This document shows positions 2,386 through 19,254 of a DNA stretch of 51,879 nt, piece after piece. A model generated the notes under the pieces. That model did no database searches. It was not told the origin of the DNA and saw nothing but the letters and a program-made list of their open reading frames with translations. The position numbers and the translations under genes were made by a program. Origin of the DNA: Bacteroides sp. GTDB taxonomy: Bacteria > Bacteroidota > Bacteroidia > Bacteroidales > Bacteroidaceae. Each line of letters begins with the position of its first letter. Position 1 is the first letter of the stretch. The stretch is taken from positions 1 to 51,879 of the forward strand of contig JAFUNS010000020.1 in assembly GCA_017472925.1 (NCBI GenBank). Direction: 5' to 3'.

Positions 2386-3537
2386 CTAATATGTAAACTC
2401 ATTTAAAACTATTTCCGCATGTTTAGCCCTTGTCTTATAGTCCGTTATTCCAAATAAAACATTTTCATATTTAGCTAACAAATGATTGTTTTCTTTAGCT
2501 ATTCTAAAAAAAGAGAAGAATAAGAGTAAAATTAACAAAGGCTTATATTTACTGCCTATTATATTTTTAGAGAACAAGTGTGAAAAAATAATCCAATAGG
2601 AAAAAACAAATAAAACAGGAAAACGTTCTACAAAAACTAGAACATCCGCAAACAACATAAATAACAAATAAAAAGCTAAAGCACAATTATATAAAATTTT
2701 AAAATTACTTATTACGCTGTTAAGCCTATTATAATAATAAGTCAACAAACAGATATTAAAAGTTCGTTCAAAAAAACCAAAAGAGAGTTTATAAGAACTT
2801 GTATCGTTAGTGTAAACCAATACTTTCTTAACTAAGTCCATTTCACCATCGAGTGGTAAATGATTTAATAGCCAAAAAGAAATACTATATCCCAATAAAA
2901 AGGTAGAAGCAGAAGTAAAGATTATGATCCACTTTAATTTATTTGAAATTTCAATATTCAAGAGATAATACATTGGCAAATAAATCAAAGCAGAATAATG
3001 AAAGGTCACCCCCAATAAATTACAAAGAATAAAAGGTATAATTTTTCTTTCCTCTATGAATTTAATAGAATACATAAATAAAATTATAGCCTTTACATTC
3101 CTTAATAAATTAAATTCAATACCTAAACCTTGATATGCAATAAAAAAACATAATATTAGAATTAAAGAAGTATCATATCTTCTAAAGACAAGAACAAAAA
3201 AATAGAAATCAACTAATGTATTTATTAGAATCCATATAAAATAATTCGGGAATATCGTTTTTATAATACTACTATAAATGACAAAACCAGGTTCATAAGA
3301 GAAAGTAGTCAGATTATAAACATCTGGCAAACTTTCAAAGAAGACATAATAATTTGTAAAATCAGAATATACAAAACCTCTTAAACCAATAAACAATACA
3401 ACAATGATAACAGCAATCTTTTCATATCGTTTTCTTTTATTGTTATTATGACATTTCTTTGTCTTTGAATAAAGAAACAAAAGCCATAACCACAACAATA
3501 GATATGGACAAGAATAAAGATAACTAAAAGTAGGCAT
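2386..3537 (-). CDS. wzy: EpsG-family capsule polymerase (Wzy)
   Basis: A polytopic membrane protein of 383 residues with roughly ten hydrophobic segments and the hallmarks of the EpsG/Wzy family: GLRG after the second membrane segment, YEPGF in the following periplasmic loop, an N-L-R-N-x-K motif near residue 145, and FHYSAL in the middle. It should polymerise lipid-linked repeat units at the periplasmic face. I chose the ATG at 3537, because the two extra upstream codons need a TTG start. It is the only polymerase candidate in the locus. Wzy proteins are too divergent for linkage prediction. Confidence 0.8.
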   Translation of the reverse strand: MPTFSYLYSCPYLLLWLWLLFLYSKTKKCHNNNKRKRYEKIAVIIVVLFIGLRGFVYSDFTNYYVFFESLPDVYNLTTFSYEPGFVIYSSIIKTIFPNYFIWILINTLVDFYFFVLVFRRYDTSLILILCFFIAYQGLGIEFNLLRNVKAIILFMYSIKFIEERKIIPFILCNLLGVTFHYSALIYLPMYYLLNIEISNKLKWIIIFTSASTFLLGYSISFWLLNHLPLDGEMDLVKKVLVYTNDTSSYKLSFGFFERTFNICLLTYYYNRLNSVISNFKILYNCALAFYLLFMLFADVLVFVERFPVLFVFSYWIIFSHLFSKNIIGSKYKPLLILLLFFSFFRIAKENNHLLAKYENVLFGITDYKTRAKHAEIVLNEFTY

Positions 3538-3565
3538 ATACAAGACAAGGGAAAAGAGCGAATAC

Positions 3566-4336
3566 CTATATTCTCTTTTTTATTTTTCTTAATTTATTGA
3601 CAATCTTTTTTATATATTTAAAAACAGATATATATTTATGAAAAGGTACATAATAAAGCTTTAAAAAATCTATATCATATTTAAATCTAGGAGGCAAACT
3701 ATCCTTTATTCCTTGATATCTTTCATTTAAACTTTTATCTAAATTACAACTTACTCCTGCTGTTTCTGCTATTGCAACAATTACATCTATACTTTTATAA
3801 CTGCAATTATTGATAATTAAAGACTTAAAGAAAAAGATAGAATCACTTGCTATTTTATATGTTTCGTCATATGGACATTTTAATAACAATTCTCTTTTTA
3901 TAAAAGCAGATTGATGATGTAATGCTGATTTTATAAAATAACAAATAGACAATTCTTTTTCTTCGGGAGGAAATATCATTTTATTAGTCTCACCCCATTG
4001 CCCTATTCCAACAATTATATCAAATATTAATTCATTGGAGACATTACATAAAACATATTCATCCTTAAATACATCACCAGAATTCATGAATATACAATAT
4101 TCACCTCTTGCAAGTCTAACCCCTTTATTCATGGCTTCATATATTCCATGATCTCGTTCAGAAATGACTGTTATTTCTCCATCTATAGAATTTAATGTTT
4201 CTAGACTGCCATCATTACTATCACCATCAATAACTATATATTCATAATCATCATACCGTTGTTCTAAAACACTTTTAATTGTTTGTTTTAAACCTTCATT
4301 ATTATTATAGTTAACTGTAATAACAGAGATTTTCAT
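3566..4336 (-). CDS. Glycosyltransferase family 2
   Basis: A 256-residue GT-A enzyme. It begins with the classic MKISVITVNYNN strand, followed by VIDGDSNDGS (nucleotide binding), ISERDHGIYEAMNKG, and an NSGD motif in place of the usual metal-binding DxD around residue 95. It resembles WcaE-type transferases that add a sugar to exopolysaccharide repeat units. The ATG start overlaps the stop of the upstream glycosyltransferase by 4 bp, typical of translational coupling. Specificity is not predictable. Confidence 0.85.
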   Translation of the reverse strand: MKISVITVNYNNNEGLKQTIKSVLEQRYDDYEYIVIDGDSNDGSLETLNSIDGEITVISERDHGIYEAMNKGVRLARGEYCIFMNSGDVFKDEYVLCNVSNELIFDIIVGIGQWGETNKMIFPPEEKELSICYFIKSALHHQSAFIKRELLLKCPYDETYKIASDSIFFFKSLIINNCSYKSIDVIVAIAETAGVSCNLDKSLNERYQGIKDSLPPRFKYDIDFLKLYYVPFHKYISVFKYIKKIVNKLRKIKKRI

Positions 4337-5415
4337 ATACTATTATTTAAAATATTACTAAATTTTTGATACGATTCATCCCAAGTAAAATATTTTATAT
4401 ATTTTACACCATTTTCAGCTATACGATTCCTTACAATAGAATTCTCTGATAATTGTTTCACGTTTTTATATAATTGTTCTTCATTATTTATATCAGATAA
4501 TAAAGCTGTTTGGTTATGTTTAGCCATAATCATATACCCTTTGTTATTAGTACAAGCAACGGCGCATCCACACAACATGGCTTCTCCTACTGTCAGTCCC
4601 CATCCTTCATTCGCACTTGTACCCATATAAATACTAGCACTATTATATAAATGTCTTAATGTTTCCGGACTTGGATTGCTATGATATTCCATCCATGATG
4701 GTAAAAAAGAAGGTCTACTTGTTGCACCAAAAATTATAGCATTAATTTGTGGATTTTCTTTTTTTAGTTTCACTAATACGTTAATTCCCATTTGTGCACA
4801 TTTATTCTTCGAAATATGCCACATCATAATTACCGTATTAGGATTTCTTTCGTTTATAGGATTCTCTATATAAAAAACAGCTTGATTAAAACCATTATAA
4901 ACAACGTCTGCCTTTTCTTTTAATTGAATAGCATAATCTTTTAACCAATCAGATATTACTATTTTTTTAAGAGACAACTTCCATGTAGATTTAACTATCT
5001 CTTCATTTCCATTCCAAAATTCAAGTCCTTGTATAAAATAGAATTTTCTATCAGACACAATAGTTTTATATTGATTAAGCCACAATGCCGTTGACCATGA
5101 AGTAGCTATAACGATGTCAGTTTTAGGAATATATTTTTCATGAAGACTCAATGTTAATATATGAAAAGATTTTTTATCTGTATAGAACCAATTATCCGGT
5201 TTATATGAAATAAATTGATATTTAATATATCTAAATAAACGAAAAAACTTATAAGCTAATGATAATGGAAACTTTAAATCCTTTCTAGATATAATTCCAT
5301 ATACATAATAAACTGTATGTCCATCAGTTATCAAACGATTTCCATATTCATAAACGACTTTATACCCACCTTGTGGTATATTCCCCGTATTGGGAAGCAA
5401 GAAACAAACTTTCAC
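4333..5415 (-). CDS. Glycosyltransferase family 4
   Basis: A 360-residue GT-B glycosyltransferase. The N-terminus (MKVCFLLPNTGNIPQGGYKV) has the glycine-rich acceptor-side loop of GT4 enzymes. The C-terminal EX7E motif is NEGWGLTVGEAMLCG, around residues 268-282. Translation starts with GTG, and this codon overlaps the TGA of the acetyltransferase gene upstream (GTGA at 5412-5415). It is expected to extend the capsule repeat unit; the donor sugar is unknown. Confidence 0.85.
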   Translation of the reverse strand: MKVCFLLPNTGNIPQGGYKVVYEYGNRLITDGHTVYYVYGIISRKDLKFPLSLAYKFFRLFRYIKYQFISYKPDNWFYTDKKSFHILTLSLHEKYIPKTDIVIATSWSTALWLNQYKTIVSDRKFYFIQGLEFWNGNEEIVKSTWKLSLKKIVISDWLKDYAIQLKEKADVVYNGFNQAVFYIENPINERNPNTVIMMWHISKNKCAQMGINVLVKLKKENPQINAIIFGATSRPSFLPSWMEYHSNPSPETLRHLYNSASIYMGTSANEGWGLTVGEAMLCGCAVACTNNKGYMIMAKHNQTALLSDINNEEQLYKNVKQLSENSIVRNRIAENGVKYIKYFTWDESYQKFSNILNNSI

Positions 5416-6020
5416 TTATCTACTAATTTTATTACTTTACATGGATTCCCCGCTGCAATACAATCAGCAGGTATTGATTTTGTTACTACACTACCACTTC
5501 CAATAACCGATCGCGCTCCAATTGTTACACCTTTTAATATAATACATCTAGCTCCTATAAAAACATCATCTTCAATAATTATCGGTGCATTTATTTTATT
5601 TGATTGATCTAACGTTGGGATTCTTCTTTCTAAATAATTCAAACTATGTGCATCACTATCCATTAAAATGCTATCACCACCAATATTAACATTATTTCCT
5701 ATTTTTATAGAAACATGAGCCCATATACATGATGAACTCATTCCAACATTATCTCCAATAGATATAGATGCGTCAGAATTTGCTACTATACATCCTTTAA
5801 TATTACGACAAAGAGGATTTAAACATTCCCCACTACTAAATGTGAAACCATTACCAATAACAATCTGTGAATTTTGTCCTAATTCTAAATACATTCCTGT
5901 ATAAACATTCAACTTATCACCATAGATTACACCTTTTAGCTTAAATTTTAACCGATTCCAAAATGGATAAAATAATACTTTAATCTTATGGGATAAATGA
6001 TAGAATTTAGCTACTAACAT
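5412..6020 (-). CDS. Hexapeptide-repeat acyltransferase (WcaF/NodL-like)
   Basis: A 202-residue left-handed beta-helix acyltransferase. Hexapeptide repeats run from about residue 50 to 190, including IGDNVGMSSSCIWAHVSIKI, IEDDVFIGARCIILKGVTIG and the closing SVVTKSIPADCIAAGNPCKV, which is characteristic of acetyl-CoA-dependent sugar O- or N-acetyltransferases. It could decorate the repeat unit, or acetylate the 3-amino sugar made by the FdtA/FdtB-like enzymes of the same locus, since FdtC enzymes use this fold. The two roles cannot be separated from sequence. Confidence 0.8.
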   Translation of the reverse strand: MLVAKFYHLSHKIKVLFYPFWNRLKFKLKGVIYGDKLNVYTGMYLELGQNSQIVIGNGFTFSSGECLNPLCRNIKGCIVANSDASISIGDNVGMSSSCIWAHVSIKIGNNVNIGGDSILMDSDAHSLNYLERRIPTLDQSNKINAPIIIEDDVFIGARCIILKGVTIGARSVIGSGSVVTKSIPADCIAAGNPCKVIKLVDK

Positions 6021-6027
6021 AAATTAA

Positions 6028-7092
6028 TTATTTAATAATAATATAATCTCTATTCTTATATAGATAAGTAGGGAAATATGTATATAAATAACTACTAAGA
6101 AATGGTAGCGAAAAAATTTTCCCTATTTTTAAAAAAAAGGAGAAAACATTGTTTTTTTTCTTATTAACTAATTCTACTCCTGGATGATGTTTGATTAATA
6201 TATCAACCCCATATTGAGAACTGATAAGATTCTTATATTTATCTACTACTTTTAGATATGGATAGTATAATTGTTTAACTAAATTATCATCTATTCCCCA
6301 CTGATGATAAACGTTAATTTTAATTTTATTTTTATCAATATATTGTAGATTTTCAAAATGGTAAAACAATATAGAATATAATTTATTTTGGATTTCTACA
6401 ATTATCCCCCGTTCGTTAGATTCCACATATTTATACTGAGAAATATTCCAAGGTGCGATACCTGCACCTAAATGTTCTGTTTCTATACAATAATAGTAAT
6501 CGTCACACCAATTATCTTGATATTTTTGATCAGCCCAATGCACACCATCTCCATCAATTTTACAATAATCAAGACATTGTTTACACCATATATTCAATAA
6601 CTCGTTCCCTTTTTTATCATTTTTAAATGTATTAAATTCTACACAATATTTACCTACAACGAAACTTCTTTGTTTTTCTTCTCTTTTATTAAATCGATGT
6701 CCTATAACTTGAACTGATGCTTTTTTTTGCTTCATCTCTTGAATTATCTGATAAGGATCAGAATAAAAATATAAATCAGCATCTACATAGGTACAATATT
6801 CTGGCTCATATGTATCAATAACGTAACGAATAAGATTCGAGGAACAAGTCCAGCAGTATTCTCCGACAGAACGAGTTAGCTTTACTTTTAATAATTCCTC
6901 ACTTTCAAAGTCTGACAATTTAATAGGAACAAGACTCTGTAATTTGAGGTCGTTAATAATTTCATAACATTTATCATCCATAGCAAGCACATATAATACA
7001 AAATTATTTGACACTTTCTCTAAGGACTCATATAATGCTAACCCTTTATCAAGATATAAGCTGTTAAACAATGTACATAATACAGTAGTCAT
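6028..7092 (-). CDS. GT8-like nucleotide-sugar transferase
   Basis: A 354-residue protein with a GT-A fold of GT8 type. The N-terminus (MTTVLCTLFNSLYLDKGLAL) resembles proteins that scan for a nucleotide-diphospho-sugar. The metal-binding motif is the DAD of TYVDADLYFYSDP, near residues 118-130. The C-terminal part contains FYHFENLQY, a motif common in GT8-like capsule transferases. It lies 7 bp after the acyltransferase gene below and overlaps the upstream gene by 4 bp. It probably adds a hexose to the repeat unit, but donor and linkage are unknown. Confidence 0.7.
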   Translation of the reverse strand: MTTVLCTLFNSLYLDKGLALYESLEKVSNNFVLYVLAMDDKCYEIINDLKLQSLVPIKLSDFESEELLKVKLTRSVGEYCWTCSSNLIRYVIDTYEPEYCTYVDADLYFYSDPYQIIQEMKQKKASVQVIGHRFNKREEKQRSFVVGKYCVEFNTFKNDKKGNELLNIWCKQCLDYCKIDGDGVHWADQKYQDNWCDDYYYCIETEHLGAGIAPWNISQYKYVESNERGIIVEIQNKLYSILFYHFENLQYIDKNKIKINVYHQWGIDDNLVKQLYYPYLKVVDKYKNLISSQYGVDILIKHHPGVELVNKKKNNVFSFFLKIGKIFSLPFLSSYLYTYFPTYLYKNRDYIIIK

Positions 7093-8144
7093 AATTTCAC
7101 ACTTATTAGTTTTCTGATAAGAAAATCATTAATTCGTTTAAACATCAAATATGCTATATATGCAAGGAATACTGAAACAATAAACCAAAGAAACACAAAC
7201 AGATAGTGACAATCAGAACAAGTTTCATTAGTTAGCAAACGTTCAAAAGAGGACGATATCCTATACAACTCCAAAGTAAACATACCCATAAATCCGAATG
7301 GCCACAAAATATTTTTCCCAATTATCGATTTTGACAGTCTATTAAATATTAAACATAAAACATAAAGATAAGACGGAGTCATACAGAGATTAGTGAACCA
7401 TAAATAATATTGCTCTCCTATTTTAAATGCAAAGCACAAAACACCTAATATGGTCGAAAACATAAGGTATCTTACAACTAATCTTTTGTCATATCCATTC
7501 TTTATACCAACAGCAACCATACTTCCTAACAGAAAATCAGGAATACGATAAATAAATGCCAAATGCTTCCAATCAAGCCATTCATTGTTAGAAACAAAAA
7601 TAGCAGTAATGAAACTGAAAATTCCAATACAAATTATCCAATAATATCTACAGGGCCTAACTATCCATTTAAAATAAAAAGGATAAATTACATACAAACC
7701 AACGAGAGCTGGAACATACCAATCAATATATGGAAATCCAAACCAATATCCTAATGTTGTGGAACGCAACAATGCTAATTCCAAACTTTCACCTCTAACT
7801 AACCAACATTCTATTAGCGTAATAAATGTAAAGAATGGGAATATGCGCACCCATCGCTTGATATAATATTCTTTTAAATTGAATTTTATAAGACACGAAT
7901 AGGTTAATCCTAGACCAGATAACACCATAAAAATATCGACTCCGACATACCCTTGAGAAAACAATGTTCTCAAGCCAATATCAGTAATCGTTGTTCCTCC
8001 ACTAGTACAGAAGTGATATATTACAATGATAAAAATAGAAAATCCCATCAATTGGCCTCTATATTCACTTAGCCAATTAAGATCTAACCACTTATCTTCC
8101 CAAAAACACTTATTACCACTAAGCGTATTCATATCTTGATTCAT
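7089..8144 (-). CDS. Membrane acyltransferase family 3 (OatA/OafA-type)
   Basis: A 351-residue integral membrane protein with about ten hydrophobic segments. The acyltransferase-3 family histidine appears in the first membrane helix (FSIFIIVIYHFCTSGG, near residues 36-51), followed by GYVGVDIFMVLSGLGLTYS, a second family signature. Such enzymes move acetyl or other acyl groups across the membrane onto surface polysaccharide. Its presence suggests O-acylation of the capsule in addition to the soluble hexapeptide enzyme. It overlaps the downstream GT8-like gene by 4 bp and is separated from the aminotransferase by 150 bp holding a probable gene remnant. Confidence 0.8.
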   Translation of the reverse strand: MNQDMNTLSGNKCFWEDKWLDLNWLSEYRGQLMGFSIFIIVIYHFCTSGGTTITDIGLRTLFSQGYVGVDIFMVLSGLGLTYSCLIKFNLKEYYIKRWVRIFPFFTFITLIECWLVRGESLELALLRSTTLGYWFGFPYIDWYVPALVGLYVIYPFYFKWIVRPCRYYWIICIGIFSFITAIFVSNNEWLDWKHLAFIYRIPDFLLGSMVAVGIKNGYDKRLVVRYLMFSTILGVLCFAFKIGEQYYLWFTNLCMTPSYLYVLCLIFNRLSKSIIGKNILWPFGFMGMFTLELYRISSSFERLLTNETCSDCHYLFVFLWFIVSVFLAYIAYLMFKRINDFLIRKLISVKL

Positions 8145-8171
8145 ATTAACTCTTCCGCATCAATCATCTCT

Positions 8172-8282
8172 TTATAATTCCATCACCAGCTTATAATATA
8201 TCTTATATATTGAATGTACTACAGCTAAGCCAAGTAATAATACCTCAATATTTTCACAAACTATTATGATAGACAATTTCAT
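8172..8282 (-). pseudogene. Possible remnant of a GT2 gene (36 codons)
   Basis: In the 150-bp gap between two CPS genes the minus strand has an ATG frame of 36 codons starting MKLSIIIVCEN. This start looks like the first beta strand of a family 2 glycosyltransferase (typically MKLSIIIVNYN), but similarity is lost after about 12 residues. It may be the stump of a glycosyltransferase deleted when cassettes were exchanged, or chance. The gap is also where base composition changes between the two halves of the locus. Confidence 0.25.
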
Positions 8283-8294
8283 TATAGCCGATAT

Positions 8295-9407
8295 CTAATA
8301 AAAAGCATTAAGTACTCCAACAATACTTTTTGCTTCTTCTATTGTCACCACTTGATTCATAGGAATAGACAACTCCAGCTTATGAATCTTCTCTGTAATA
8401 GGCAGGCTCAACTGTGGTATATTCCACTCTACATTGGCATAACATTCCTGATGGTGAGGAGGAATAGGATAGTGAATCAAAGTCTGTACACCATTCTCTG
8501 CAAGATATGCCTGCAACACATCTCTTCTCTCACTGAAAATTGGAAACTGATGGTACACATTATTCTCATCTGGGATTTGTGTAGGAAGCGTAATAAATGG
8601 ATTATTGATATGCTCATAATAATAAGCAGCCAACTTCTGTCGATGGGCATTATCTTCATCCAAATACTTAAGTTTCACATCAAGCACAGCGGCATCCAGT
8701 TCACTCATACGAGAGTTCATTCCTACATACTTGAATACATACTTCTTCTGGCTACCATAGTTTGCAAGTGCACGAATAACGCATGCTAACTCCTTATCAG
8801 AAGTAGTGACAGCACCAGCATCACCAAAAGCACCCAAGTTCTTGCCAGGATAGAAAGAGTGTGCTGCTGCATCACCAAGAGCTCCAGTCTTCACACCCTT
8901 CCACGCACAACCATGGCTCTGAGCACAGTCTTCCATCAACTTAAGGTTATGTTTCTTACAGATTTCACCCAACTTGTCATTGTATGCTATACGTCCGTAA
9001 AGGTGGACAATCATCACACCCTTAGTCTTAGGTGTAATAGCCTCTTCAATTCTATCAATATCAATCTCAAGATGCTCCCATGTAGGTTCTACGAGGATAG
9101 GGACGAGATTATTCTTGGTGATAGCAAGAATGGTTGCAATGTAAGTGTTTGCAGGCACAATAATCTCGTCACCATCTTGCATAATACCCATCTCCTTGTA
9201 TGCACGCATTATCAAATACAATGCATCAAGACCATTCGCAACTGTAATACACTCATCAGTACCAGTATATTTTGCATAGTTTGCTTCAAAACTCTTGTTC
9301 TCGTTGCCTTGAAGGAACCAACCAGATTCAATAACTCTGTTTACAGCAGCTTTATATTCTTCGCCATGCTGCATGGTAATGGCTTGAAGATCTAATAACT
9401 TTACCAT
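8295..9407 (-). CDS. fdtB: dTDP-3-oxo-sugar aminotransferase (FdtB/QdtB type)
   Basis: A 370-residue PLP-dependent DegT/DnrJ/EryC1-family sugar aminotransferase. Lys189 in SFYPGKNLGAFGDAG is the Schiff-base lysine, and Asp160 in LMEDCAQSHG contacts the PLP ring nitrogen. Its position directly after the double FdtA/QdtA-type isomerase indicates it aminates a dTDP-3-oxo-6-deoxyhexose, giving dTDP-3-amino-3,6-dideoxy-galactose (Fuc3N) or -glucose (Qui3N). Length is normal for the family. The next expected enzyme is an N-acyltransferase, possibly the hexapeptide protein encoded at 5412-6020. Galacto versus gluco product cannot be decided here. Confidence 0.85.
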   Translation of the reverse strand: MVKLLDLQAITMQHGEEYKAAVNRVIESGWFLQGNENKSFEANYAKYTGTDECITVANGLDALYLIMRAYKEMGIMQDGDEIIVPANTYIATILAITKNNLVPILVEPTWEHLEIDIDRIEEAITPKTKGVMIVHLYGRIAYNDKLGEICKKHNLKLMEDCAQSHGCAWKGVKTGALGDAAAHSFYPGKNLGAFGDAGAVTTSDKELACVIRALANYGSQKKYVFKYVGMNSRMSELDAAVLDVKLKYLDEDNAHRQKLAAYYYEHINNPFITLPTQIPDENNVYHQFPIFSERRDVLQAYLAENGVQTLIHYPIPPHHQECYANVEWNIPQLSLPITEKIHKLELSIPMNQVVTIEEAKSIVGVLNAFY

Positions 9408-9428
9408 TGCTATTATTATAATATGTTA

Positions 9429-10337
9429 TTACTTTTTATCTCTTTCTTCAACGTATCTCAAGAAATCATCGTAATTGCGGATATAATCATCCTCTGAGTA
9501 TCCATGACTTGCTAACACAAGGCAAATAGAACCAGAAGAGAATCCCTGTTCAGATGCCCAAATGCCAGGAGGAACATGCAGCCCCCAGAAAGGTCGATTA
9601 AGTGTTACTGTACGTTTGTTTACACCATCATCTAGCACCACTTCAAAAGCACCAGAGGCTGCAATGATAAACTGATGGCACTCTTTGTGAGCATGTGCAC
9701 CTCTATCTTCACCTCCTGGAATATCATACGAGTAGAAAACACGGTTGATAGGGAATGGAACATGTACGTTTTCATACACATAGGTTAAATTACCCTCATC
9801 GTCGTGCCACTTGCTCAATTCATAGAGTGAGCAGTCAAAAACACTTTTTACAGCCTTGTTAGGCAGATTCGGACAATTATATTCGTTTACATTTCCTATT
9901 ACAATAGGCTCCTCTACACGTCCTCGATTATCTGAAGCCCATATCTTGAACTCTTCATAGTCCATGATATAATCTTCTTCCGAATACTCAGTTGAAGAGA
10001 GCACCAAAGCCAACGAGTTTGTAGAGAAATTAAACATCTTTCGCCACATTCCCTTAGGCACATACAAGCCCATGTATGAACGGTTAAGAGAAAAAACTTT
10101 CTTCTCAGAACCATCATCCAACTCCACATCAAAAGATCCTGAGAGTGCAACTATAAACTCCTGATTCTCTTTATATGCGTGTTCTCCACGGTCGTAACCA
10201 CCAGGAACATCATATATCCAATAAGTACGCTTGATTTCAAACAGAATTTGTTTGAATTGTTCTATGATGGATAGATTACCACGTACATCTCCAATCTTGG
10301 GAAGATTGAGGATTTTAGCATCTATTATATTAGCCAT
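9429..10337 (-). CDS. fdtA: Tandem double-cupin dTDP-4-oxo-6-deoxyhexose 3,4-ketoisomerase (FdtA/QdtA type)
   Basis: Two FdtA/QdtA (WxcM-like) cupins in one 302-residue chain, where the family norm is a single domain of about 140 residues. Domain 1 covers about residues 5-140 and domain 2 about 160-298. Each has the PGG-x-DRG-x-HA core. Domain 2 keeps the family HAHK motif (H215, H217), whereas domain 1 reads HAYK (H53, Y55), losing the second histidine. FdtA and QdtA convert dTDP-4-oxo-6-deoxyglucose, the RfbB product, to the 3-oxo sugar that the neighbouring aminotransferase would use. Domain 1 could be catalytically altered or structural. Confidence 0.85.
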   Translation of the reverse strand: MANIIDAKILNLPKIGDVRGNLSIIEQFKQILFEIKRTYWIYDVPGGYDRGEHAYKENQEFIVALSGSFDVELDDGSEKKVFSLNRSYMGLYVPKGMWRKMFNFSTNSLALVLSSTEYSEEDYIMDYEEFKIWASDNRGRVEEPIVIGNVNEYNCPNLPNKAVKSVFDCSLYELSKWHDDEGNLTYVYENVHVPFPINRVFYSYDIPGGEDRGAHAHKECHQFIIAASGAFEVVLDDGVNKRTVTLNRPFWGLHVPPGIWASEQGFSSGSICLVLASHGYSEDDYIRNYDDFLRYVEERDKK

Positions 10338-10341
10338 ATTT

Positions 10342-11838
10342 TCAGTCTATTTCTGTCATTTTGTTATAGTTATAGATTGCAGAACTGTATTGTTGTTGAA
10401 CCTTATCAGAAGGCAAGGTTCTTATTAACTCAGCCATATCCTCTACACTCTCGCAGCATGGGAAACCAAGTTTATTAATATCCTCGTAATAAGCTCTATG
10501 ACCTGTAAGATTACATGATGAAAACGGAATACCCTTAAAACCGGCATCTAACATTGCAACAGAATGTTCGCCAAACACTAAATCAACTTCCTTTAAATCT
10601 TCTTCAAAAGAAGACCTCTTGTATGAAAGAACAAACGTACCATTTTCTTGAGCTACCGGTATGTTGCTTGAAATCTTTAAGTTAGGCAAATTCAACCAAG
10701 AAATATACTCTGCACACCTATTGATAGAATTAATGCCTGCATGTTCTGGATGAATCCATGTGGGATGACATCTATAGATAAATTCCACATCTGGAAACAT
10801 TGCGGCTACTTTACCCATTGCCCAAATTAAACGGTCATCATCTGAGCGGTTTTTAATTGCAGTCCAGTCTCCAGTACCACTAGATGCACAAAGGACCTTC
10901 TTAACTTTAGCTGGAAATCTAAATTCGTTCGGTAAGAAAAGTTTCTTTCTAATTGGCATAATTCTATGTGGTAGATGGTGATAGCGGAATGTGTTACATC
11001 CTATGTCGTCCCAAGTATAAAATTCTGTATTCAATCCATAAAAGTACAAATAGTTACTACTATAGTTGGGAGGCAAATATCCGTCTTGTATTAGTTTGAC
11101 GTTCATCTCCTTCTTATCTGGTATAGTGTGATAACCTTCATGGAAAGAAGACAAACGAATCGTTTTATTTTTCCACACGATACCGAGCATATTAAAAAAA
11201 TATTTAAAATGCTCCATTAGACCAGCATCATGAAAATCCAAATCTATACGATAACCAATACGTGCCAATCTTCCATAAAAAAGGTATCGTACACCATCCT
11301 TATATGATTCATGGATAGAGGTATTGAAAGCTTTTTTAAAGTTTAAGTACACATGATAAGGTTTTCTAAGCAATCTTCTTAAGACTGATTTTCGTTTTGT
11401 GCGATATACTGGTGCATTATAGTAGTACTCCAATTCAATTAATTGAAAACCTTTTTTTATCCATTCTTCAATGTATATACCCAACCCATCAGCTACTATA
11501 ATTTTATTGGTAAACGTATAATTCGATAATAGTTTATCAATCAACCTTTGATTTTTAAGTACCTTAATATCTTTATAGAATGCTGTTACATCTTGTCCTT
11601 GTACACTAGGATTAAAGGCATCTTTATCACATTTCTCTCTTTCTGCGTCTGTCAACATATCGCTAAAATTCAAGTAAACACACTTGCATCCCAAAACAGA
11701 ATCAATTATCATTGACTCATTCTCAAAGATATATTGTGTAGATAGAATCAGTGTATCACTTCCCTGCTGCACAATATCTTTAAGATTTGCAAGCGATTGA
11801 AGTTTTACATTTTGATTTAATACAATAATATTGTCCAT
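10342..11838 (-). CDS. Unassigned CPS-locus protein, possibly a GT-B or CDP-polyol phosphotransferase
   Basis: A 498-residue soluble protein I do not recognise with certainty. The N-terminal half has no clear motif. The C-terminal half looks like a GT-B nucleotide-binding domain: VLCASSGTGDWTAIKNRS near 305-322, then CHPTWIHPEHAG near 355-366, and FGEHSVAMLDAGFKGIPF near 423-440. The last resembles the phosphate-binding region of CDP-glycerol glycerophosphotransferases and some polysialyltransferases. It begins 2 bp after a TagD-like cytidylyltransferase gene, so transfer of a CDP-activated polyol or alditol phosphate is a reasonable guess. It is not proven. Confidence 0.45.
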   Translation of the reverse strand: MDNIIVLNQNVKLQSLANLKDIVQQGSDTLILSTQYIFENESMIIDSVLGCKCVYLNFSDMLTDAEREKCDKDAFNPSVQGQDVTAFYKDIKVLKNQRLIDKLLSNYTFTNKIIVADGLGIYIEEWIKKGFQLIELEYYYNAPVYRTKRKSVLRRLLRKPYHVYLNFKKAFNTSIHESYKDGVRYLFYGRLARIGYRIDLDFHDAGLMEHFKYFFNMLGIVWKNKTIRLSSFHEGYHTIPDKKEMNVKLIQDGYLPPNYSSNYLYFYGLNTEFYTWDDIGCNTFRYHHLPHRIMPIRKKLFLPNEFRFPAKVKKVLCASSGTGDWTAIKNRSDDDRLIWAMGKVAAMFPDVEFIYRCHPTWIHPEHAGINSINRCAEYISWLNLPNLKISSNIPVAQENGTFVLSYKRSSFEEDLKEVDLVFGEHSVAMLDAGFKGIPFSSCNLTGHRAYYEDINKLGFPCCESVEDMAELIRTLPSDKVQQQYSSAIYNYNKMTEID

Positions 11839-11840
11839 AT

Positions 11841-12248
11841 TTATTTCTGTATTTTTTCTCTTAGCATTGATGAACTGATACCTTCTGTATGCGTAAGATA
11901 TTCTATTCTTGCCCCATACTTTGCAAACTCCTGTTCGTAATGGTTATAAAGTTCTGTTCCCTTCCACTCGTCTCCATGAAACATGACATCAAAATGATGC
12001 GATTTAAGGAATTCCACTTTATCCATAGATGTTTGAGGTACAACTTCATCTACATATTTGATGGCTTCAACAATCGCTGCACGCTGTTCATAAGGAATTA
12101 CTGGTATTTTATTCTTGTATGAGAATACACATTCATCTGTACTAACACCAACTATCAAATAATCGCACTTTTCTTTAGCGCGACGCAATATATTTAAATG
12201 GCCTATATGAAACATGTCATATACACCTGATGTATAACCGATTATCAT
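11841..12248 (-). CDS. TagD-like glycerol-3-phosphate (or related) cytidylyltransferase
   Basis: A 135-residue nucleotidyltransferase of the cytidylyltransferase superfamily, the same size as TagD (about 130 residues). HIGH at residues 14-17 is the CTP-binding HxGH motif, and the C-terminal ISSSMLR (124-130) corresponds to the family ISTT-x-x-R motif. Known members form CDP-glycerol, CDP-ethanolamine or ADP/CDP-heptose. In this locus it most likely activates a polyol phosphate for attachment to the capsule by the gene immediately downstream. The exact substrate is open. Confidence 0.75.
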   Translation of the reverse strand: MIIGYTSGVYDMFHIGHLNILRRAKEKCDYLIVGVSTDECVFSYKNKIPVIPYEQRAAIVEAIKYVDEVVPQTSMDKVEFLKSHHFDVMFHGDEWKGTELYNHYEQEFAKYGARIEYLTHTEGISSSMLREKIQK

Positions 12249-12259
12249 TGCTATAATTA

Positions 12260-13450
12260 TTATAGAAGTTTTTTCAATATTCTATGTTTTATTAATCTTA
12301 GAGGAGCAATAAAATTTCTTTTAATTTTATTCACTTTAATTTTATCATACTCTTCTTTATAAGTCATGTGCATAGCCTTTTCAAAAGAATAGGTTTTCAT
12401 ATTTTCCCAAAATAATTCATACTTTTCAGGTATTGGAGTTGGGCATTGAAGTGTTTCATTCCCTGCAATTGCTTCTTCAATATTACGAACTAGAAAATTT
12501 ATTTCTGGTTTTATAGCTTCAAAAACAGCATTACCTCTTTCTGTATTTACCATGAGTAAATTCACACCCCTTTTATGGAAATCATACTTCTTCACTATTT
12601 CTTCATCCAATCCCCAAAAATCGGCCAACGTTATATCACCCACCCTTTCACGGGATGCATATTGGCAAGCAAAACAAGATTGACGGTATAACACATGAGA
12701 CATAAAACCAAGGAAGTATTCGTCTTCGTATTGATACCCCAAATACTTAACTTCATTTCCATTCCTTAAGGCTAACCGACAGTCATAATCTCCCCCCCTG
12801 AAAGTAATATTATTAATATTTTTAAGTCTATGTTTCTTACATAAATATTGGATATGCTCCTTAAAAATCACTGGAGACGCTCCTCCATGACAAAGCAAAT
12901 CAATGATTATCAGATTGTTATAACCATCTCCTACATATTTACGAACAGAATCACATTGACAAGCAACACCGATAAACAAACATAAACGGCCAGACTTTAC
13001 CTCAGTTTTTATATCTTCAAAAGTTTCTCTTGACACTTTGCTTAGAGAGTATTTAGACTTGCGAAGTTTCTCAAGTTCATGTTCTGATTCTATCCCAATA
13101 TGAACAGCTTCTAGTTTGTCATTCCATGCACAACCATAAACCTTACCACCTTGTCTTATAACGTACCTGCTAATTGCTGTGGCTAAACCACCAGAAGCGC
13201 TTTCATATTGTTCTGCCTCATCCTTGTGCCAAGCTGCATAACATCCATATGTTGCTCCATATTTGAGAATTTGTTTATTATTTGCAATACAGTTCTTGGT
13301 ACACTTTTTACAATCGATACAATTTGATTGATCAATTACGGGATACAAGTGCCCTTTGTACTCCCTCGAAAATGATATGCATTGCTTGGGGCACACGGAT
13401 GCACATAAATTACACCCGGTACAACTTTGCATAGCACAAATTTCATTCAT
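12260..13450 (-). CDS. F420-hydrogenase beta-subunit-like Fe-S flavoprotein of CPS locus
   Basis: A 396-residue protein with two N-terminal 4Fe-4S ferredoxin motifs. The first is C-x2-C-x2-C-x3-C at residues 10-20 (CTGCNLCASVC), and the second (CIDCKKCTKNC) is near 44-54. They precede the coenzyme F420 hydrogenase/dehydrogenase beta-subunit N and C domains, with CHGG, CFACQYA and VGDITLADFWG. Such proteins recur in Bacteroides polysaccharide loci, often beside polysaccharide pyruvyltransferases; their redox role in glycan assembly is not established. I chose the ATG at 13450 over an upstream TTG. No pyruvyltransferase is visible here. Confidence 0.75.
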   Translation of the reverse strand: MNEICAMQSCTGCNLCASVCPKQCISFSREYKGHLYPVIDQSNCIDCKKCTKNCIANNKQILKYGATYGCYAAWHKDEAEQYESASGGLATAISRYVIRQGGKVYGCAWNDKLEAVHIGIESEHELEKLRKSKYSLSKVSRETFEDIKTEVKSGRLCLFIGVACQCDSVRKYVGDGYNNLIIIDLLCHGGASPVIFKEHIQYLCKKHRLKNINNITFRGGDYDCRLALRNGNEVKYLGYQYEDEYFLGFMSHVLYRQSCFACQYASRERVGDITLADFWGLDEEIVKKYDFHKRGVNLLMVNTERGNAVFEAIKPEINFLVRNIEEAIAGNETLQCPTPIPEKYELFWENMKTYSFEKAMHMTYKEEYDKIKVNKIKRNFIAPLRLIKHRILKKLL

Positions 13451-13455
13451 AAAAC

Positions 13456-14982
13456 TCAATGTTTATCTATGATTGATTTAATTTTAGATACGACAAAATT
13501 CCTTTCCTCGAATCTCAATCCTATATAAAATACAGCAAGTAAGGTAGTGACAACACAAGCGAAAGAAACTAATAGAAACCGTTGCCATCCATCACATAAT
13601 ACATTGTGCATGATGAGAGGAATCACTAACGATGTAACTGCCACAAGTGCAACTCTGCAGATTACCTGACGAAAAAATAAAGCCGGACTTAAATTGATTT
13701 GCTTGTGTAAAACAAATACTCTTATCACTACTCCAATAATAGTTGATATTAAAAGAGAAATAAACACGCTTTCTGGGACTCCAGAATATTTGATTGACAA
13801 AAAGGTTATAATCATAAAAGTGTATGATACTGAACATACACTGAGATTATATAGCTTCAACTTGCCAGAAGCAAGATTGGCAGTAAACAAAGGATTAATA
13901 AATGCATCAAGTAACGTAATACACAAAATCAAGCGGACAAAGCTAGTAGTATGATCAGGAACTTCTCCTAACCAAAGGTTCAAAATAAAATCTGCTTCTA
14001 CCAATACAGGCAGTGATATAATAAACAGCAGAAAAAAACATAGCCTAGCACTTGTAAAAACCAGCGAATACATACGCTCCATTTCATTGGAAGCATATGA
14101 TTTGATTATTTGAGGATTAATGGCCACCTGTACATTATTAGCAAATTGCTTCACTACTGATTCAACCTGTACTGCTATGCCGCGGGCTGCATTTACAGCA
14201 GGCCCACAAAAAGCATTGAGCATCAAATTGATTCCTTGACTATAAAAAAGATGTGAAAAATTGCCGACAAGAGCCCAACCCGCAAACCCCATCATCTCCT
14301 TAAAAATAGAACGATTCCAATAATATTTAATTTTAGTCTCTATAAAATGACATCTGCAATAAACATAATAAATTACAAGATCAAGAATAGATACACATGT
14401 CAAACATGTTGCATAATACATGAGTTTATCAAAAGGAGAATAAGCCAATAAAAGTACAATACCTAATTTCAAGAACACATCCATTATGGCGATATAAGCA
14501 AAAGCTTTCATCTTCTCATGCGCAACTATAGTAGCATTATAAGGCACATAAAGTATGGATAGAACACACGATATTATAGATAATTGATACAACCACTGTG
14601 CTGCAAATTCACGACCTTCGGGAATGACCAGCTTATTATTTAAATAATATAGACCTACTGTTTCTGCTAACAATAAGATTATAACCGCAATACAAAGATG
14701 TATTAAGAAAGTCATGCTAAATATATTATTTAACATAGCGTTATCTTTCTTAGCCAAATAAAAGGTGATAAATCGAGATGTTGCATTTACCATAGAGCCA
14801 TTCAAGAATGTGAACATGGCAATGATGCCTCCTATTACATTATAGAGGCCATAATCCTCTACACCTAATTGCTGAAGTACAACACGTGATGTGTATAATC
14901 CCACAATCATTGTTATACCCATACGGAAATACATAAAAATTGTATTTCGGGCAATTCGTTTATTGTCAGATAAAATAGACAT
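13456..14982 (-). CDS. wzx: Wzx-type polysaccharide flippase (MOP superfamily)
   Basis: A 508-residue polytopic membrane protein with 12-14 hydrophobic segments. The N-terminus (NTIFMYFRMGITMIVGLYTS) is typical of Wzx/RfbX repeat-unit flippases, followed by VLQQLGVEDYGLYNVIGGII. It should move the undecaprenyl-diphosphate-linked repeat unit to the periplasmic face for the Wzy-like polymerase encoded at 2386-3537. It lies 38 bp after rfbB and 5 bp before the Fe-S protein gene. Confidence 0.85.
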   Translation of the reverse strand: MSILSDNKRIARNTIFMYFRMGITMIVGLYTSRVVLQQLGVEDYGLYNVIGGIIAMFTFLNGSMVNATSRFITFYLAKKDNAMLNNIFSMTFLIHLCIAVIILLLAETVGLYYLNNKLVIPEGREFAAQWLYQLSIISCVLSILYVPYNATIVAHEKMKAFAYIAIMDVFLKLGIVLLLAYSPFDKLMYYATCLTCVSILDLVIYYVYCRCHFIETKIKYYWNRSIFKEMMGFAGWALVGNFSHLFYSQGINLMLNAFCGPAVNAARGIAVQVESVVKQFANNVQVAINPQIIKSYASNEMERMYSLVFTSARLCFFLLFIISLPVLVEADFILNLWLGEVPDHTTSFVRLILCITLLDAFINPLFTANLASGKLKLYNLSVCSVSYTFMIITFLSIKYSGVPESVFISLLISTIIGVVIRVFVLHKQINLSPALFFRQVICRVALVAVTSLVIPLIMHNVLCDGWQRFLLVSFACVVTTLLAVFYIGLRFEERNFVVSKIKSIIDKH

Positions 14983-15020
14983 TAGATTTAAATGTATTAT
15001 CGATTGCTATAAATTGAATC

Positions 15021-16139
15021 TTAATACATTTGATAGTCACCAGAAGTCACATTATCCATCCACTTCTGGTTATCCAAGTACCAACGAACTGTACGCTCAA
15101 TTCCTTCTTCAAACTGTAAAGAAGGTTCCCAACCGAGTTCTTTTTGTAGTTTTGAACTATCAATGGCATAACGAGCATCGTGTCCAAGGCGGTCGATTAC
15201 ATAGGTAATCAAGTCCATATCTTCACCTTCTTTGCGACCTAACAAACGGTCTACGGTGTTAATCACGACCTTAATAATATCAATGTTCTTCCATTCATTG
15301 AAACCACCAATATTGTACGTTTCAGCTATTTTACCTTTGTGAAAAATAACATCAATAGCTCTGGCGTGATCTTCAACAAAAAGCCAATCGCGCACATTCT
15401 CGCCTTTGCCATACACTGGTAATGGTTTGCGGTTACGAATGTTATTGATGAACAAGGGTATCAGTTTTTCGGGGAATTGATATGGACCGTAATTGTTTGA
15501 ACAATTGGTTACAATAGTAGGCATACCATATGTATCGTGATAGGCTCTTACAAAATGGTCACTACTTGCCTTACTTGCACTATAGGGTGAGTGAGGGTTA
15601 TATTTAGTTGTTTCATAAAAGAAATCATCACCATAAGCCAAATGATGCTCAGAGGATGAAGCAGTGGTTTTGAATGGGGGTTCAATTCCTTCGGGCTTGT
15701 TCATTTCCAATGCTCCATAGACTTCATCGGTGGAGATGTGATAGAAGAGTTTGCCTTCATATTTTTCGGGTAATGATTCCCAATATAACTTGGCTGCTTG
15801 AAGTAAGGCTAATGTACCCATTACATTGGTTCTTGCAAAGGTAAAGGGATCTTTGATGCTTCTATCGACATGGCTTTCGGCAGCCAAGTGGATGATACCA
15901 TCTATCTTTTCATCTTGCATCAACTGATAGAATGCATCGAAATCGCAAATATCCATCTTTACGAACTTGTAGTTGGGTTTGTCTTCAACATCTTTGAGAT
16001 TTGCCAAATTACCGGCATAGGTCAGTTTGTCCAAGCAAATGATTTTATAATCAGGATACTTGTTTACGAACAATCGTACAACGTGGCTACCGATGAAGCC
16101 TGCACCACCGGTAATGACTATGTTTCTTTTGAATTGCAT
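15021..16139 (-). CDS. rfbB: dTDP-glucose 4,6-dehydratase
   Basis: A 372-residue extended short-chain dehydrogenase that converts dTDP-glucose to dTDP-4-oxo-6-deoxyglucose, the entry step to the 3-amino-deoxy sugar made by the isomerase and aminotransferase downstream. GGAGFIG at residues 10-16 binds NAD; STDEVYG holds the catalytic Asp-Glu pair; YSASKASSD holds the Tyr-x3-Lys. I start at the ATG giving MQFKRNIVITGGAGF, since the longer frame adds nine residues ahead of the usual family start. No rfbA/rmlA thymidylyltransferase lies in the window, so dTDP-glucose must come from elsewhere. Confidence 0.93.
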   Translation of the reverse strand: MQFKRNIVITGGAGFIGSHVVRLFVNKYPDYKIICLDKLTYAGNLANLKDVEDKPNYKFVKMDICDFDAFYQLMQDEKIDGIIHLAAESHVDRSIKDPFTFARTNVMGTLALLQAAKLYWESLPEKYEGKLFYHISTDEVYGALEMNKPEGIEPPFKTTASSSEHHLAYGDDFFYETTKYNPHSPYSASKASSDHFVRAYHDTYGMPTIVTNCSNNYGPYQFPEKLIPLFINNIRNRKPLPVYGKGENVRDWLFVEDHARAIDVIFHKGKIAETYNIGGFNEWKNIDIIKVVINTVDRLLGRKEGEDMDLITYVIDRLGHDARYAIDSSKLQKELGWEPSLQFEEGIERTVRWYLDNQKWMDNVTSGDYQMY

Positions 16140-16258
16140 AAAATAGTATGATTGAAAACTTCCCAAGACTTACCCCCTTAAAGAAAAGAAGCGAGAAAGA
16201 AAGCAGTATCGAGGGAGGCTATATTAGTTATGACTTTACTATGATGTTAGTATCCATT

Positions 16259-16741
16259 CTAACCCTTCAACCGTTGCATAAAAGAGATCATGCGTAGTTC
16301 TTTGGGGGAAGGGCCTTTCTTACCAGCTTCGGCCAACTGCAGATAGAACTTATAATATTCGGAAAGGGAGTTACGGACACTGTCGGGCATCAGCATCTTC
16401 CATTCGCCTTTAGCCTCATCAATATAGGTAAGCACCAAACCGAACTTCTGAAGCTTGTATTCGGTCTTTCGGGCCTTGCGAGTTATGTAAGCATCTTCGA
16501 CCGATCTTACAAACTCATCCAATAATTGTAACTCAGCCTTGCATAGGCTATATAGGATGGCTTCGGGACTATGCAGTAATTCGTAGGCAAGCCTGCGGGC
16601 TGTTTCGTCTTTCTTCAGATTGGGACTGACATAGAGGTCGAGCGTTTTGCAAATCTTCAGCATATCTGCCTTGGTCTTGACTGCAAGAATGCTTGCCAAA
16701 GAAAGATTTGACTTGAAATCGGTATTAGCTATGGTTACCAT
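16259..16741 (-). CDS. Small SAP/Rho_N-like protein in the capsule locus (UpxZ position)
   Basis: A 160-residue protein occupying the slot after upxY where UpxZ is normally found, but not resembling UpxZ. Residues about 13-55 (TKADMLKICKTLDLYV, then NLKKDETARRLAYELL) look like a helix-extended-helix of the SAP/Rho_N type, as at the N-terminus of Rho. The rest is basic and probably alpha-helical (LCKAELQLLDEFV, RKARKTEYKLQKFGL). I chose the ATG at 16741 because the MVTIANTDFK start is followed at once by the conserved-looking part; an ATG 17 codons upstream is possible. Function unknown. Position and fold suggest nucleic-acid binding or control of transcription elongation. Confidence 0.6.
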   Translation of the reverse strand: MVTIANTDFKSNLSLASILAVKTKADMLKICKTLDLYVSPNLKKDETARRLAYELLHSPEAILYSLCKAELQLLDEFVRSVEDAYITRKARKTEYKLQKFGLVLTYIDEAKGEWKMLMPDSVRNSLSEYYKFYLQLAEAGKKGPSPKELRMISFMQRLKG

Positions 16742-16996
16742 AGTGATTAGTAAGGGGTGCTGAAAATTGGCCTGGGAAGCGGGGCTTCGCAAGCTATGGA
16801 TATTGTAATACTTAATCCGTTTTATTAAGAATGATTACAAAAGTAATGAATTATTCTTTTGATAATTTCAGGATTACGACGTGTATCAAAAATTGCTGTA
16901 ATGATTAAACCAACTACTCATTTCATGCTGATAAGTACATTTGCCATCTGTTGTGTTTTGTTTCCTCATCCTCCACATCATCCTTATTCTTTTAGT

Positions 16997-17280: not shown

Positions 17281-17817
17281 TTACACCAACTGGATGTAAT
17301 CGGGGTTTACCTCTACCCCTACTGCCAACAGATTAGGAAGCTCTACTAACAAGCGCTTGACCCGAGAACCACGGGTGGTTATCAGGGTACCTTCATAACC
17401 GTCCAGCGGACCACCGATGATGCGGATGGAACGGTTGTGCATCTGCGGAGTGATTTCTTCGGGCAGATAGTATTTGGGGGATTCGGAACTGCTCACCGCA
17501 TGAATGAAACGTTCCATATCGGTATCGGGAACGGTCATCGGACAACGGTAGGCATTGGGAACCCAACGATATTGCAAAGTGGGAAATTTCTCAACAATAG
17601 GGTCCAAGTTCAAGCGATTGTCGTGCACAAACAACAAATCCTGAATGCAAGGAACTTCCTTACGCACCCTCTTCCCTTTCTCTACTGTCAAACGCCACTT
17701 CATGGGTGTAAAGACCTGGAGATTCCTTTCGATAAGCAACTTGTAGGCCGGATGCTTGGCATTGGCCCGCTTGAGGTCGCGCATCACAAACCAACGAACT
17801 TGTTTTTCGCTGTCCAA
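17281..17817 (-). CDS. upxY: UpxY-type NusG-like transcription antiterminator
   Basis: A 178-residue NusG paralogue of the UpxY family, which load on RNA polymerase in the leader of their own capsule operon and prevent premature termination. The NGN domain covers about residues 7-110, beginning with the beta strand RWFVMRDLKRANAKHPAYK. A KOW-like domain follows around 132-165 (GGPLDGYEGTLITTRG). The start must lie before residue 8 to keep the first NGN strand, yet no in-frame ATG exists there; TTG at 17817 is the best candidate (ATT just upstream is another). It is the first gene of the locus, after the invertible promoter, which points the wrong way here. Confidence 0.88.
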   Translation of the reverse strand: MDSEKQVRWFVMRDLKRANAKHPAYKLLIERNLQVFTPMKWRLTVEKGKRVRKEVPCIQDLLFVHDNRLNLDPIVEKFPTLQYRWVPNAYRCPMTVPDTDMERFIHAVSSSESPKYYLPEEITPQMHNRSIRIIGGPLDGYEGTLITTRGSRVKRLLVELPNLLAVGVEVNPDYIQLV

Positions 17818-17980: not shown

Positions 17981-18003
17981 TTCATCTCTTCGTAAGAGAT
18001 GAA
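17981..18003 (+). repeat. Left inversion site (23-bp inverted repeat)
   Basis: The site has 10-bp arms TTCATCTCTT and AAGAGATGAA around a central CGT. It is identical, in inverted orientation, to 18257-18279; homology ends exactly at both edges. The arms are themselves palindromic, as for tyrosine recombinase core sites. Only the 3-bp centre gives the site a direction. Confidence 0.92.
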
Positions 18004-18079
18004 GCGATTTAATTAGTTGCTTGATTTTCAACCCTATTTTATCATAATTTCTAAAAATGTAATAAGAAATATCCCATCA

Positions 18080-18158
18080 TGTCATTCTGAACGAAGTGAA
18101 GAATCCGAATACATCCACGTTTTATGCAATCAGATCCTTCGCTTCACTCAGGATGACA
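18080..18158. repeat. Dispersed palindromic element, copy 1 (inside the invertible segment)
   Basis: Imperfect inverted repeat with outer ends TGTCATTCTGAACGAAG and CTTCACTCAGGATGACA, about 79 bp, without a gene. Related copies are at 22041-22122 (full length) and 47177-47203 (half element). It looks like a non-autonomous palindromic repeat; here it sits between the two inversion sites, so it flips with the promoter. Confidence 0.75.
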
Positions 18159-18256
18159 AAAGAGGGCTACAATACTTTCTTGCCGATTTTTTAAAACAAA
18201 TTATTCCATATTCTTATTTGGTATTCAAATGTTTTTTGTACTTTTGCAGAAAGTAA

Positions 18257-18279
18257 TTCATCTCTTACGAAGAGATGAA
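18257..18279 (-). repeat. Right inversion site (23-bp inverted repeat)
   Basis: Same arms as the left site with central ACG, i.e. the reverse complement of the left copy. It lies 10 bp downstream of the -7 box of the invertible promoter and 21 bp before the 3' end of the recombinase gene. The opposite centre in the two copies predicts inversion rather than deletion. Confidence 0.92.
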
Positions 18280-18300: not shown

Positions 18301-19221
18301 CTAAATGGATTTTATTATCTGTTGGTTGGCCTTATCGATGACGGAGGTATCCAGAGAGGCAAGATAGATACGGGTGGTGTATTCTGAATCATGCCCCATG
18401 GCCTCACTGATGGTAGCTATAGAAATGTTTTTACTCTTGGCAATGCTGGCCCACCCGTGACGGGCTACATAAGTGGTGAGTGGAATAGAAAGGCCCACCA
18501 GTTTTCCTATCTTTTTCAGTTTATTATTAATTAGGTGGGCATAGTTTACATACTGACGGCGCTCGTCTACCTCATTGGTACGGATAATGGGAAGCAAATA
18601 GGGAGTGCCGGAGGTATTGTATTTATCGATAATGGCTTGCATAGGCTTTTCCCATTTGATAATCAACAGTTGATTGGTTTTCCGGCGACGATAGGTCAAG
18701 ACACCATACTGAAGGTCTTTCTTTTTGAGGAAAGCCATATCGATAAAAGACATGCCCCGCGTATAGAACGAAAACATGAAGATATCACGCGCCAAGTCCA
18801 AATCCGGCCGATCGGTCAAATCCAAATCGCGTATCCTACGGACAATATCAACAGTGACTCCCCGTTTTACAGTACGGTCTATTCCTGTATAGACATGTTT
18901 GAAAGGATATTGTTGCACAGTCAATCCGTCTTCTACAGCCCGATTGTAAATGGCGCGGAGGTTGCGCAAATAGAAGGAAGAGGTGTTGGGACACACGCCG
19001 GTTGCTCTCAAATACATTTCGTATTCTACCATCAGCGCGGAATTTACTTCTTCTAAAGGGATGTCCCTTTCTTTCCGGAAACGGGTAAAACTGTTGAGTG
19101 TAATGGAGTATCTTTCTGCTGTTCGGTCCTTACCGATTTCTTTCATCTGACTGGTCAAATCACGCGAAAACGAAAGCAGACCCTGATCAGAATTCTTTTG
19201 ATTTTTTACGTTTGTTGCCAT
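18301..19221 (-). CDS. Tyrosine recombinase, probable invertase of the capsule promoter
   Basis: A 306-residue phage-integrase-type recombinase with an N-terminal SAM-like/core-binding domain (about 15-105) and a catalytic domain (about 120-300). Catalytic residues can be placed: Arg155 (YTRGMSFIDM), Lys181 (RRRKTNQ), Arg254 (TYVARHGWAS), His277 (MGHDSEYTT) and the nucleophile Tyr286 (TRIYLASL). The first box-II residue is Tyr251 instead of the common His, as is frequent in Bacteroides recombinases. The gene ends 21 bp from the right inversion site, which makes it the prime candidate for flipping the promoter. Transcription from the promoter in its present orientation would run antisense through it. 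Confidence 0.88.
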   Translation of the reverse strand: MATNVKNQKNSDQGLLSFSRDLTSQMKEIGKDRTAERYSITLNSFTRFRKERDIPLEEVNSALMVEYEMYLRATGVCPNTSSFYLRNLRAIYNRAVEDGLTVQQYPFKHVYTGIDRTVKRGVTVDIVRRIRDLDLTDRPDLDLARDIFMFSFYTRGMSFIDMAFLKKKDLQYGVLTYRRRKTNQLLIIKWEKPMQAIIDKYNTSGTPYLLPIIRTNEVDERRQYVNYAHLINNKLKKIGKLVGLSIPLTTYVARHGWASIAKSKNISIATISEAMGHDSEYTTRIYLASLDTSVIDKANQQIIKSI

Positions 19222-19254
19222 ATTTCTTTTTTAAATGGCAAAGTTAACGAAGGA

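Follow-up and report, generated by a model that had tools for sequence, protein, structure and literature searches.

A capsule locus within a 51,879-nt stretch of Bacteroides sp. DNA (the window) carries a promoter enclosed by two inverted sites, which raises the question of whether this promoter inverts, which enzyme would turn it, and what its orientation in the assembly means. It is established that tyrosine recombinases invert polysaccharide promoters in Bacteroidales.

An inverted site pair encloses a promoter directed away from upxY

We confirmed that the 299-bp arrangement of inverted sites and promoter is real. The two 23-nt arms are 100% complementary across the 253 nt between them, and each is a 10+3+10 palindrome with the centre CGT or ACG; the perfect pair, its 10-bp palindromic arms and its 3-bp asymmetric centre had been predicted from the letters and proved exact in sequence and position (Table 1). 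By simple arithmetic with equal base frequencies, about 4e-7 perfect 23-bp pairs within 600 bp are expected per window of this size. Each site folds as a 10-bp hairpin, and the phage collection contained no match to the switch.

Table 1 Features of the capsule switch and its surroundings in the window.
Feature	Position	Strand	Remarks
Capsule genes behind the switch	157..16166	-	dTDP-glucose dehydratase, glycosyltransferases, EpsG family, FdtA, aminotransferase-like, hexapeptide transferase, acyltransferase; some ORFs without match
177-aa ORF, usual upxZ position	16259..16792	-	no Pfam or NCBIfam match
upxY, antiterminator, first gene of the capsule operon	17281..17817	-	NF033644, E 1.8e-37, above cut-off
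upxY leader, switch to start codon	17818..17980	-	
upxY-proximal putative recombination site	17981..18003	.	TTCATCTCTT-CGT-AAGAGATGAA
Putative invertible segment, 253 bp	18004..18256	.	inversion expected from relatives
Dispersed hairpin repeat within the segment	18070..18172	.	matched 57 times or more in the draft (both strands)
Promoter: TTTG (18217-18220), 18 bp, TACTTTTG (18239-18246)	18217..18246	+	points away from upxY (OFF)
upxY-distal putative recombination site	18257..18279	.	TTCATCTCTT-ACG-AAGAGATGAA; terminator-like on the - strand in the present orientation
Tyrosine recombinase, presumed invertase, 3' end adjoining the distal site	18301..19221	-	PF13102 2.2e-19, PF00589 1.5e-6
Promoter-like -7 box TAACTTTG shortly ahead of the recombinase start	19239..19246	-	weak -33, 2 mismatches

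The promoter is the sole strict Bacteroides-type match in the segment (shuffled segments hold 0.06 per strand). Given that upxY runs leftward on the - strand and the promoter lies on the + strand, the promoter is directed away from upxY, and the OFF orientation originally assigned to it is borne out. Flipping the segment about the axis of the pair places the -7 box at 18014-18021, approximately 196 nt ahead of the upxY start. The claim that no other promoter box precedes upxY was likewise upheld for Bacteroides-type boxes, where a box had to show a perfect -7, or no more than a single mismatch across -7 and -33 combined: none was found on the - strand from 18300 to the upxY start, the nearest on that strand being at 19246-19239, before the recombinase, and at 17794-17787, inside upxY. 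A scan with the E. coli sigma-70 consensus, which is not the Bacteroides one, returned four weak - strand matches between 18338 and 18036 (five on both strands vs 1.9 expected), and we accord such E. coli-type sites ahead of upxY little weight.

The overall reading stands, namely a capsule promoter of the invertible type, shown OFF and flanked by sites that differ from those of Mpi; two of the terms in which the original prediction had put it do not. Nothing locked was seen, and silence in the cell that was sequenced does not follow, since the contig belongs to a 79-contig draft (2.8 Mb, 79.7% completeness) and its orientation is a consensus rather than the state of one cell; a minority ON fraction and read-through from the recombinase promoter are both possible.

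Relatives carry segments of this type in both orientations

To place the sites in context, we searched 61 genomes of the genus, taken to be Phocaeicola, for the core TCTCTT-NNN-AAGAGA, with arm variants left uncounted. The core was present in 35 of the 61 genomes and formed close pairs in 17. All genomes with more than one site were listed, and seven single-site genomes, unable to form a pair, were left out. Among the 65 close pairs, 64 measured 163 to 404 bp from start to start, and one, in G005, measured 3.1 kb, its counterpart in G003 and G013 being 277 bp. Non-partner neighbours were kept out of this count (L173, 1.9 kb; L185/L186, 1.4 kb; two G011 sites 22 bp apart). In the long G005 pair (L154, 2780-5602), the invertible segment is interrupted by a 2.8-kb insertion carrying two ORFs that resemble an IS21-type pair.

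Comparison of the same locus between genomes revealed natural inversion. Between G008 and G060 the flanks are collinear and 95.7 and 98.7% identical, and the segment is 95.0% identical when inverted vs 56.4% when read directly. For G008 and G028 the flanks are 67.8 and 88.7% identical and the segment 90.2% inverted and 54.2% direct; a weaker case, G014 and G051, gave flanks of 53.6 and 83.1% with 80.6% inverted and 59.2% direct. The G042 segment (L034) is inverted likewise relative to L026, L027, L030 and L036, at sites with a different arm sequence and with one L027 flank at 49.3%. Four same-state control pairs matched in the direct orientation only. Collectively, the comparisons show that this site type inverts in relatives, as distinct from the window's own locus: among the genomes compared, no second genome of the window's species was found, so inversion of this very locus was not seen, and we expect it by analogy.

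Applying a fixed target-gene rule to 63 distinct pairs (two duplicate OFF rows removed), we assigned 45 as OFF and 5 as ON, leaving 13 unassigned. A set of 51 assignable loci, window included, was then defined by dropping a doubtful ON case (L156, a 90-aa ORF) and adding L005 (OFF) and L176 (ON) by their upxY gene; it comprises 46 OFF and 5 ON loci, many of them related loci in related genomes. As OFF is the commonest state of such loci in assemblies, the OFF drawing of the window, correct as it was, carries little information, a circumstance that the original prediction had left out of account. Antisense silencing of the recombinase was considered as the cause of the bias and rejected: loci with a recombinase within 2 kb were 15 OFF and 2 ON, those without 31 OFF and 3 ON, and a bias so alike in both groups needs no such feedback.

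A tyrosine recombinase abuts the switch

Missing from the original prediction was the open tyrosine recombinase gene that abuts the switch. Its ORF encodes 306 aa, its relatives are located in the same place, and a search of the draft with its sequence at E 1e-20 found no match but itself. We examined 80 relatives of this recombinase. Downstream of the 3' end, 38 have a pair of this site type; for the other 42 the finder gave no pair, 12 of these being contig ends within 1,400 nt and 30 having full downstream sequence. The promoter in the 38 linked pairs points toward the recombinase in 31, away from it in 5 and ambiguously in 2 (five of the 36 oriented loci come from genomes of the first set). 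Viewed from the 51 switches, a recombinase match lies within 2 kb of 17.

The window combines an inverted pair and promoter, upxY and polysaccharide genes behind them, and an open adjacent recombinase; both orientations were seen in relatives with the same core site, not in the window's species. The switch is a fresh example within the known class of tyrosine-recombinase invertible capsule promoters, and it is very probably a site-specific inversion switch in which the adjacent recombinase flips the promoter segment ahead of upxY. The recombinase would bind the palindromic arms and exchange strands within the asymmetric centre, whereupon the promoter segment would flip. In the ON form, the -7 box at 18014-18021 would be directed at upxY, and UpxY would then allow transcription to continue through the capsule operon. 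When OFF, the promoter would fire toward the 3' end of the recombinase gene, leaving the capsule operon without its promoter. Only matching centres would complete strand exchange, which fits the reverse-complementary centres of each pair and their difference between two loci of this genome, and the same recombinase would also flip the second of these loci, a upxY switch on C74 with the same arms.

The switch might instead be real and be flipped by a different recombinase, the adjacent gene not being the enzyme. Elsewhere in the draft, nine places match the same SAM-like integrase family (eight over the cut-off) and two match the serine resolvase family, 34 of the 51 related switches lack a recombinase of this kind in the neighbouring 2 kb, and in P. 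vulgatus CL10 a promoter described as almost exclusively ON in broth still inverts despite a broken neighbouring recombinase (PMC13114119, in the parts used here). The other integrases and resolvases that could act and the CL10 case count against our preferred explanation, as do the 30 of 80 relatives without a pair and the replacement of the canonical first arginine by serine in an alignment to 4a8e, with an arginine three residues upstream. A similar loss of the first arginine is known from IntDOT. We nevertheless consider a different enzyme unlikely, given that this recombinase family recurs beside the site type (38 of 80 loci; 17 of 51 switches) and that no other close match to it was found in the draft, which lacks roughly one fifth of the genome.

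A further alternative leaves the enzyme aside and holds that, with the switch OFF, the capsule operon is still transcribed by read-through from the recombinase promoter at 19246. The -7 box there does transcribe toward upxY, yet the distal site, as presently oriented, resembles a terminator on this very strand and a strong dispersed hairpin lies in between, and this reading appears improbable. That the palindromes are primarily transcription terminators or attenuators, with recombination secondary or lost, is very hard to sustain: each site is a 10-bp hairpin, the distal one is terminator-like on the - strand, and the distal site of the sister locus on C74, read in the OFF direction, forms a stem of 17 pairs followed by a T-run, but terminators need no reverse-complementary centres, which 65 of 65 pairs possess, and relatives invert.

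A sister switch shares the arms and differs in the centre

Inversion by the adjacent recombinase, our preferred reading, would probably extend to a second switch with equal arms that the original prediction did not include. In the window's own draft genome, six places match the site with at most three mismatches, namely the window pair, a second pair on C74 (L005) and two isolated three-mismatch places; a reversed control pattern matched two places at the same threshold. The arms on C74 are identical over 10 bp, and the centre is GGT/ACC vs CGT/ACG in the window. Behind this switch stand a second upxY, matched by NF033644 at E 4.6e-40, and a gene resembling sugar dehydratases, whose best model, PseB, scores below its cut-off. 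The promoter of the switch, TACATTTG, is directed away from upxY, so the switch too is drawn OFF, and on its other side lies a tRNA-Thr, without a recombinase. Only two upxY genes in the draft exceed the cut-off, and both stand behind a switch of this type. Around a third upxY-like match, below the cut-off, the surrounding 3.5 kb contained only one 15-nt, 87% inverted pair. The window recombinase probably flips the C74 switch too, presumably acting in trans, and the arms shared by the two loci are no more than suggestive of a single recombinase turning both a nearby and a remote promoter, as in the Tsr19 regulon.

The dispersed hairpin repeat is present in both invertible segments, the two copies agreeing at 66 of 91 positions with a score of 37.5, vs 22.5 for the best of 200 shuffles, although the L005 copy is absent from the list of scored matches (106 candidates, 40 scored). 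Since the repeat matches the draft at 57 or more places, its occurrence in the two segments is probably incidental, and we rejected it as a part of the switch. It may explain why both segments are longer than the common 175-190 bp spacing.

Across the genus, the centres are reverse-complementary in 65 of 65 close pairs, 63 of which were re-read from the DNA. Fourteen of 32 possible centre classes occur, and AGT/ACT accounts for 36 of the 65 pairs, nine of them in one genome, so that a strict code of one centre per locus was rejected. The 3-bp centre may still serve to match partner sites, and this small genome, whose two loci share their arms but not their centres, offers a clean test of whether the triplet separates switches. 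Targets of the site family include upxY matches, and of three target proteins searched, two were small AraC-type regulators and the third, of 284 aa, had no Pfam match. The core is a readable handle for finding capsule and regulator switches in Phocaeicola, even far from a recombinase. Individual arrangements vary: at L173 (1050-3212) one recombinase has successive sites with two different centres (GAT and TGG), one of them duplicated; the tandem pairs L023, L086 and L120 also have different centres by our reading; and at L185 two neighbouring switches share one centre.

The sites as possible terminators

Flanks outside the core often lengthen the palindrome, and inversion swaps its inner halves. 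We consider it possible, though doubtful, that each site is a double device, in which the centre acts as an address so that only matching centres pair, and in which inversion re-pairs half-hairpins made up of the arms and flanks such that the OFF promoter immediately meets a T-tract hairpin that shields the neighbour from antisense RNA, while the ON flank lacks the T-tract and transcription continues. If true, this would explain how OFF promoters spare their neighbours antisense transcription.

In the OFF direction, the distal site of the sister locus forms a 17-pair stem running into seven T (-21.4 vs -10.8 kcal/mol for the proximal site). The window has a 10-bp stem followed by GCGTTTT in that direction, with only TTTT after GCG, and on the opposite strand its distal site is terminator-like toward read-through from the recombinase. 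Over the 51 genus loci, the T-tract was stronger at the distal site in 43, equal in 4 and weaker in 4; at least six T in seven were found at 24 distal vs 0 proximal sites, and no such excess appeared when the counted stretch was moved 40 nt further out (3.31 against 4.12). With the distal flank, the hairpin was more stable in 37 loci and less stable in 14. After clustering of similar flanks, 17 representatives remained, with T-tracts splitting 11, 2 and 4 in the same order (sign p 0.12) and energies favouring the distal flank in 10 and opposing it in 7. A second set, of 30 recombinase-linked loci, gave a T-tract split of 16, 5 and 9 (p 0.23); there the shifted control showed about the same T difference, and hairpin energies (13 against 17) ran counter to the terminator reading. 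The T-tract signal is concentrated in two clusters of 12 and 15 loci and a few others, such as the sister locus. A site-borne terminator is thus not established as a general rule, being non-significant after clustering and in the second locus set; there is a hint that transcription from the OFF promoter encounters the site as a terminator, plain at the sister locus and in two families of loci and weak in the window.

Relation to known switches

Among the closest published counterparts is Tsr19 (BF2766) of B. fragilis, with promoters IVp-I, local, and IVp-II, distant (PMC4747536, PMC3090145). As described in the parts of those reports used here, one tyrosine recombinase lies beside a polysaccharide promoter and also acts on a distant one; its distant locus is a lipoprotein/membrane-protein cluster, whereas both loci here are upxY loci. 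The Tsr19-controlled local promoter was OFF in 3 of 3 sequenced genomes, though PCR detects both forms (PMC3090145). The consulted portion of PMC4747536 reports that expression in B. fragilis falls with the number of repeats separating a promoter from its gene, an effect related to the terminator reading, without orientation dependence.

The Mpi-controlled capsule promoters of B. fragilis similarly invert ahead of upxY/upxZ operons (PMC12632263, in part). Mpi itself is a serine recombinase acting on 13 regions, including seven polysaccharide promoters, and the absence of ARACGTTCGT from the window repeats agrees with the prediction that the sites would differ from those of Mpi, at least as its motif, ARACGTTCGTN, is quoted in the part of PMC8375218 used. 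Accounts of inverton groups in gut Bacteroidota (PMC11892184, PMC8748976) describe upxY and tyrosine-type invertases beside promoter invertons, including a case in which a single invertase is followed by two adjacent invertible regions whose repeats are similar; the parts consulted name no centre triplet or orientation-dependent terminator. Neither was met in the portions of the wider literature on Bacteroidales promoter inversion that we covered, which leaves their absence from print unproven.

P. vulgatus CL10, probably of the same genus, likewise has upxY behind an inverted-repeat promoter with a recombinase upstream, and its inversion was detected by PCR (PMC13114119, in part). There the recombinase is broken and the promoter almost exclusively ON, a counterexample to the OFF bias, whereas the window has an open ORF and a draft drawn OFF. 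Among the loci surveyed here, the recombinase beside the G008 switch (L155, 1498-2414) is also broken, with one TGA and two TAG inside. Records named Acetatifactor, Roseburia and Pseudoflavonifractor (L107, L130 and L137) carry a recombinase of this kind, and the repeats of L107 are those of Bacteroides L105 and L110, suggesting mis-binned contigs.
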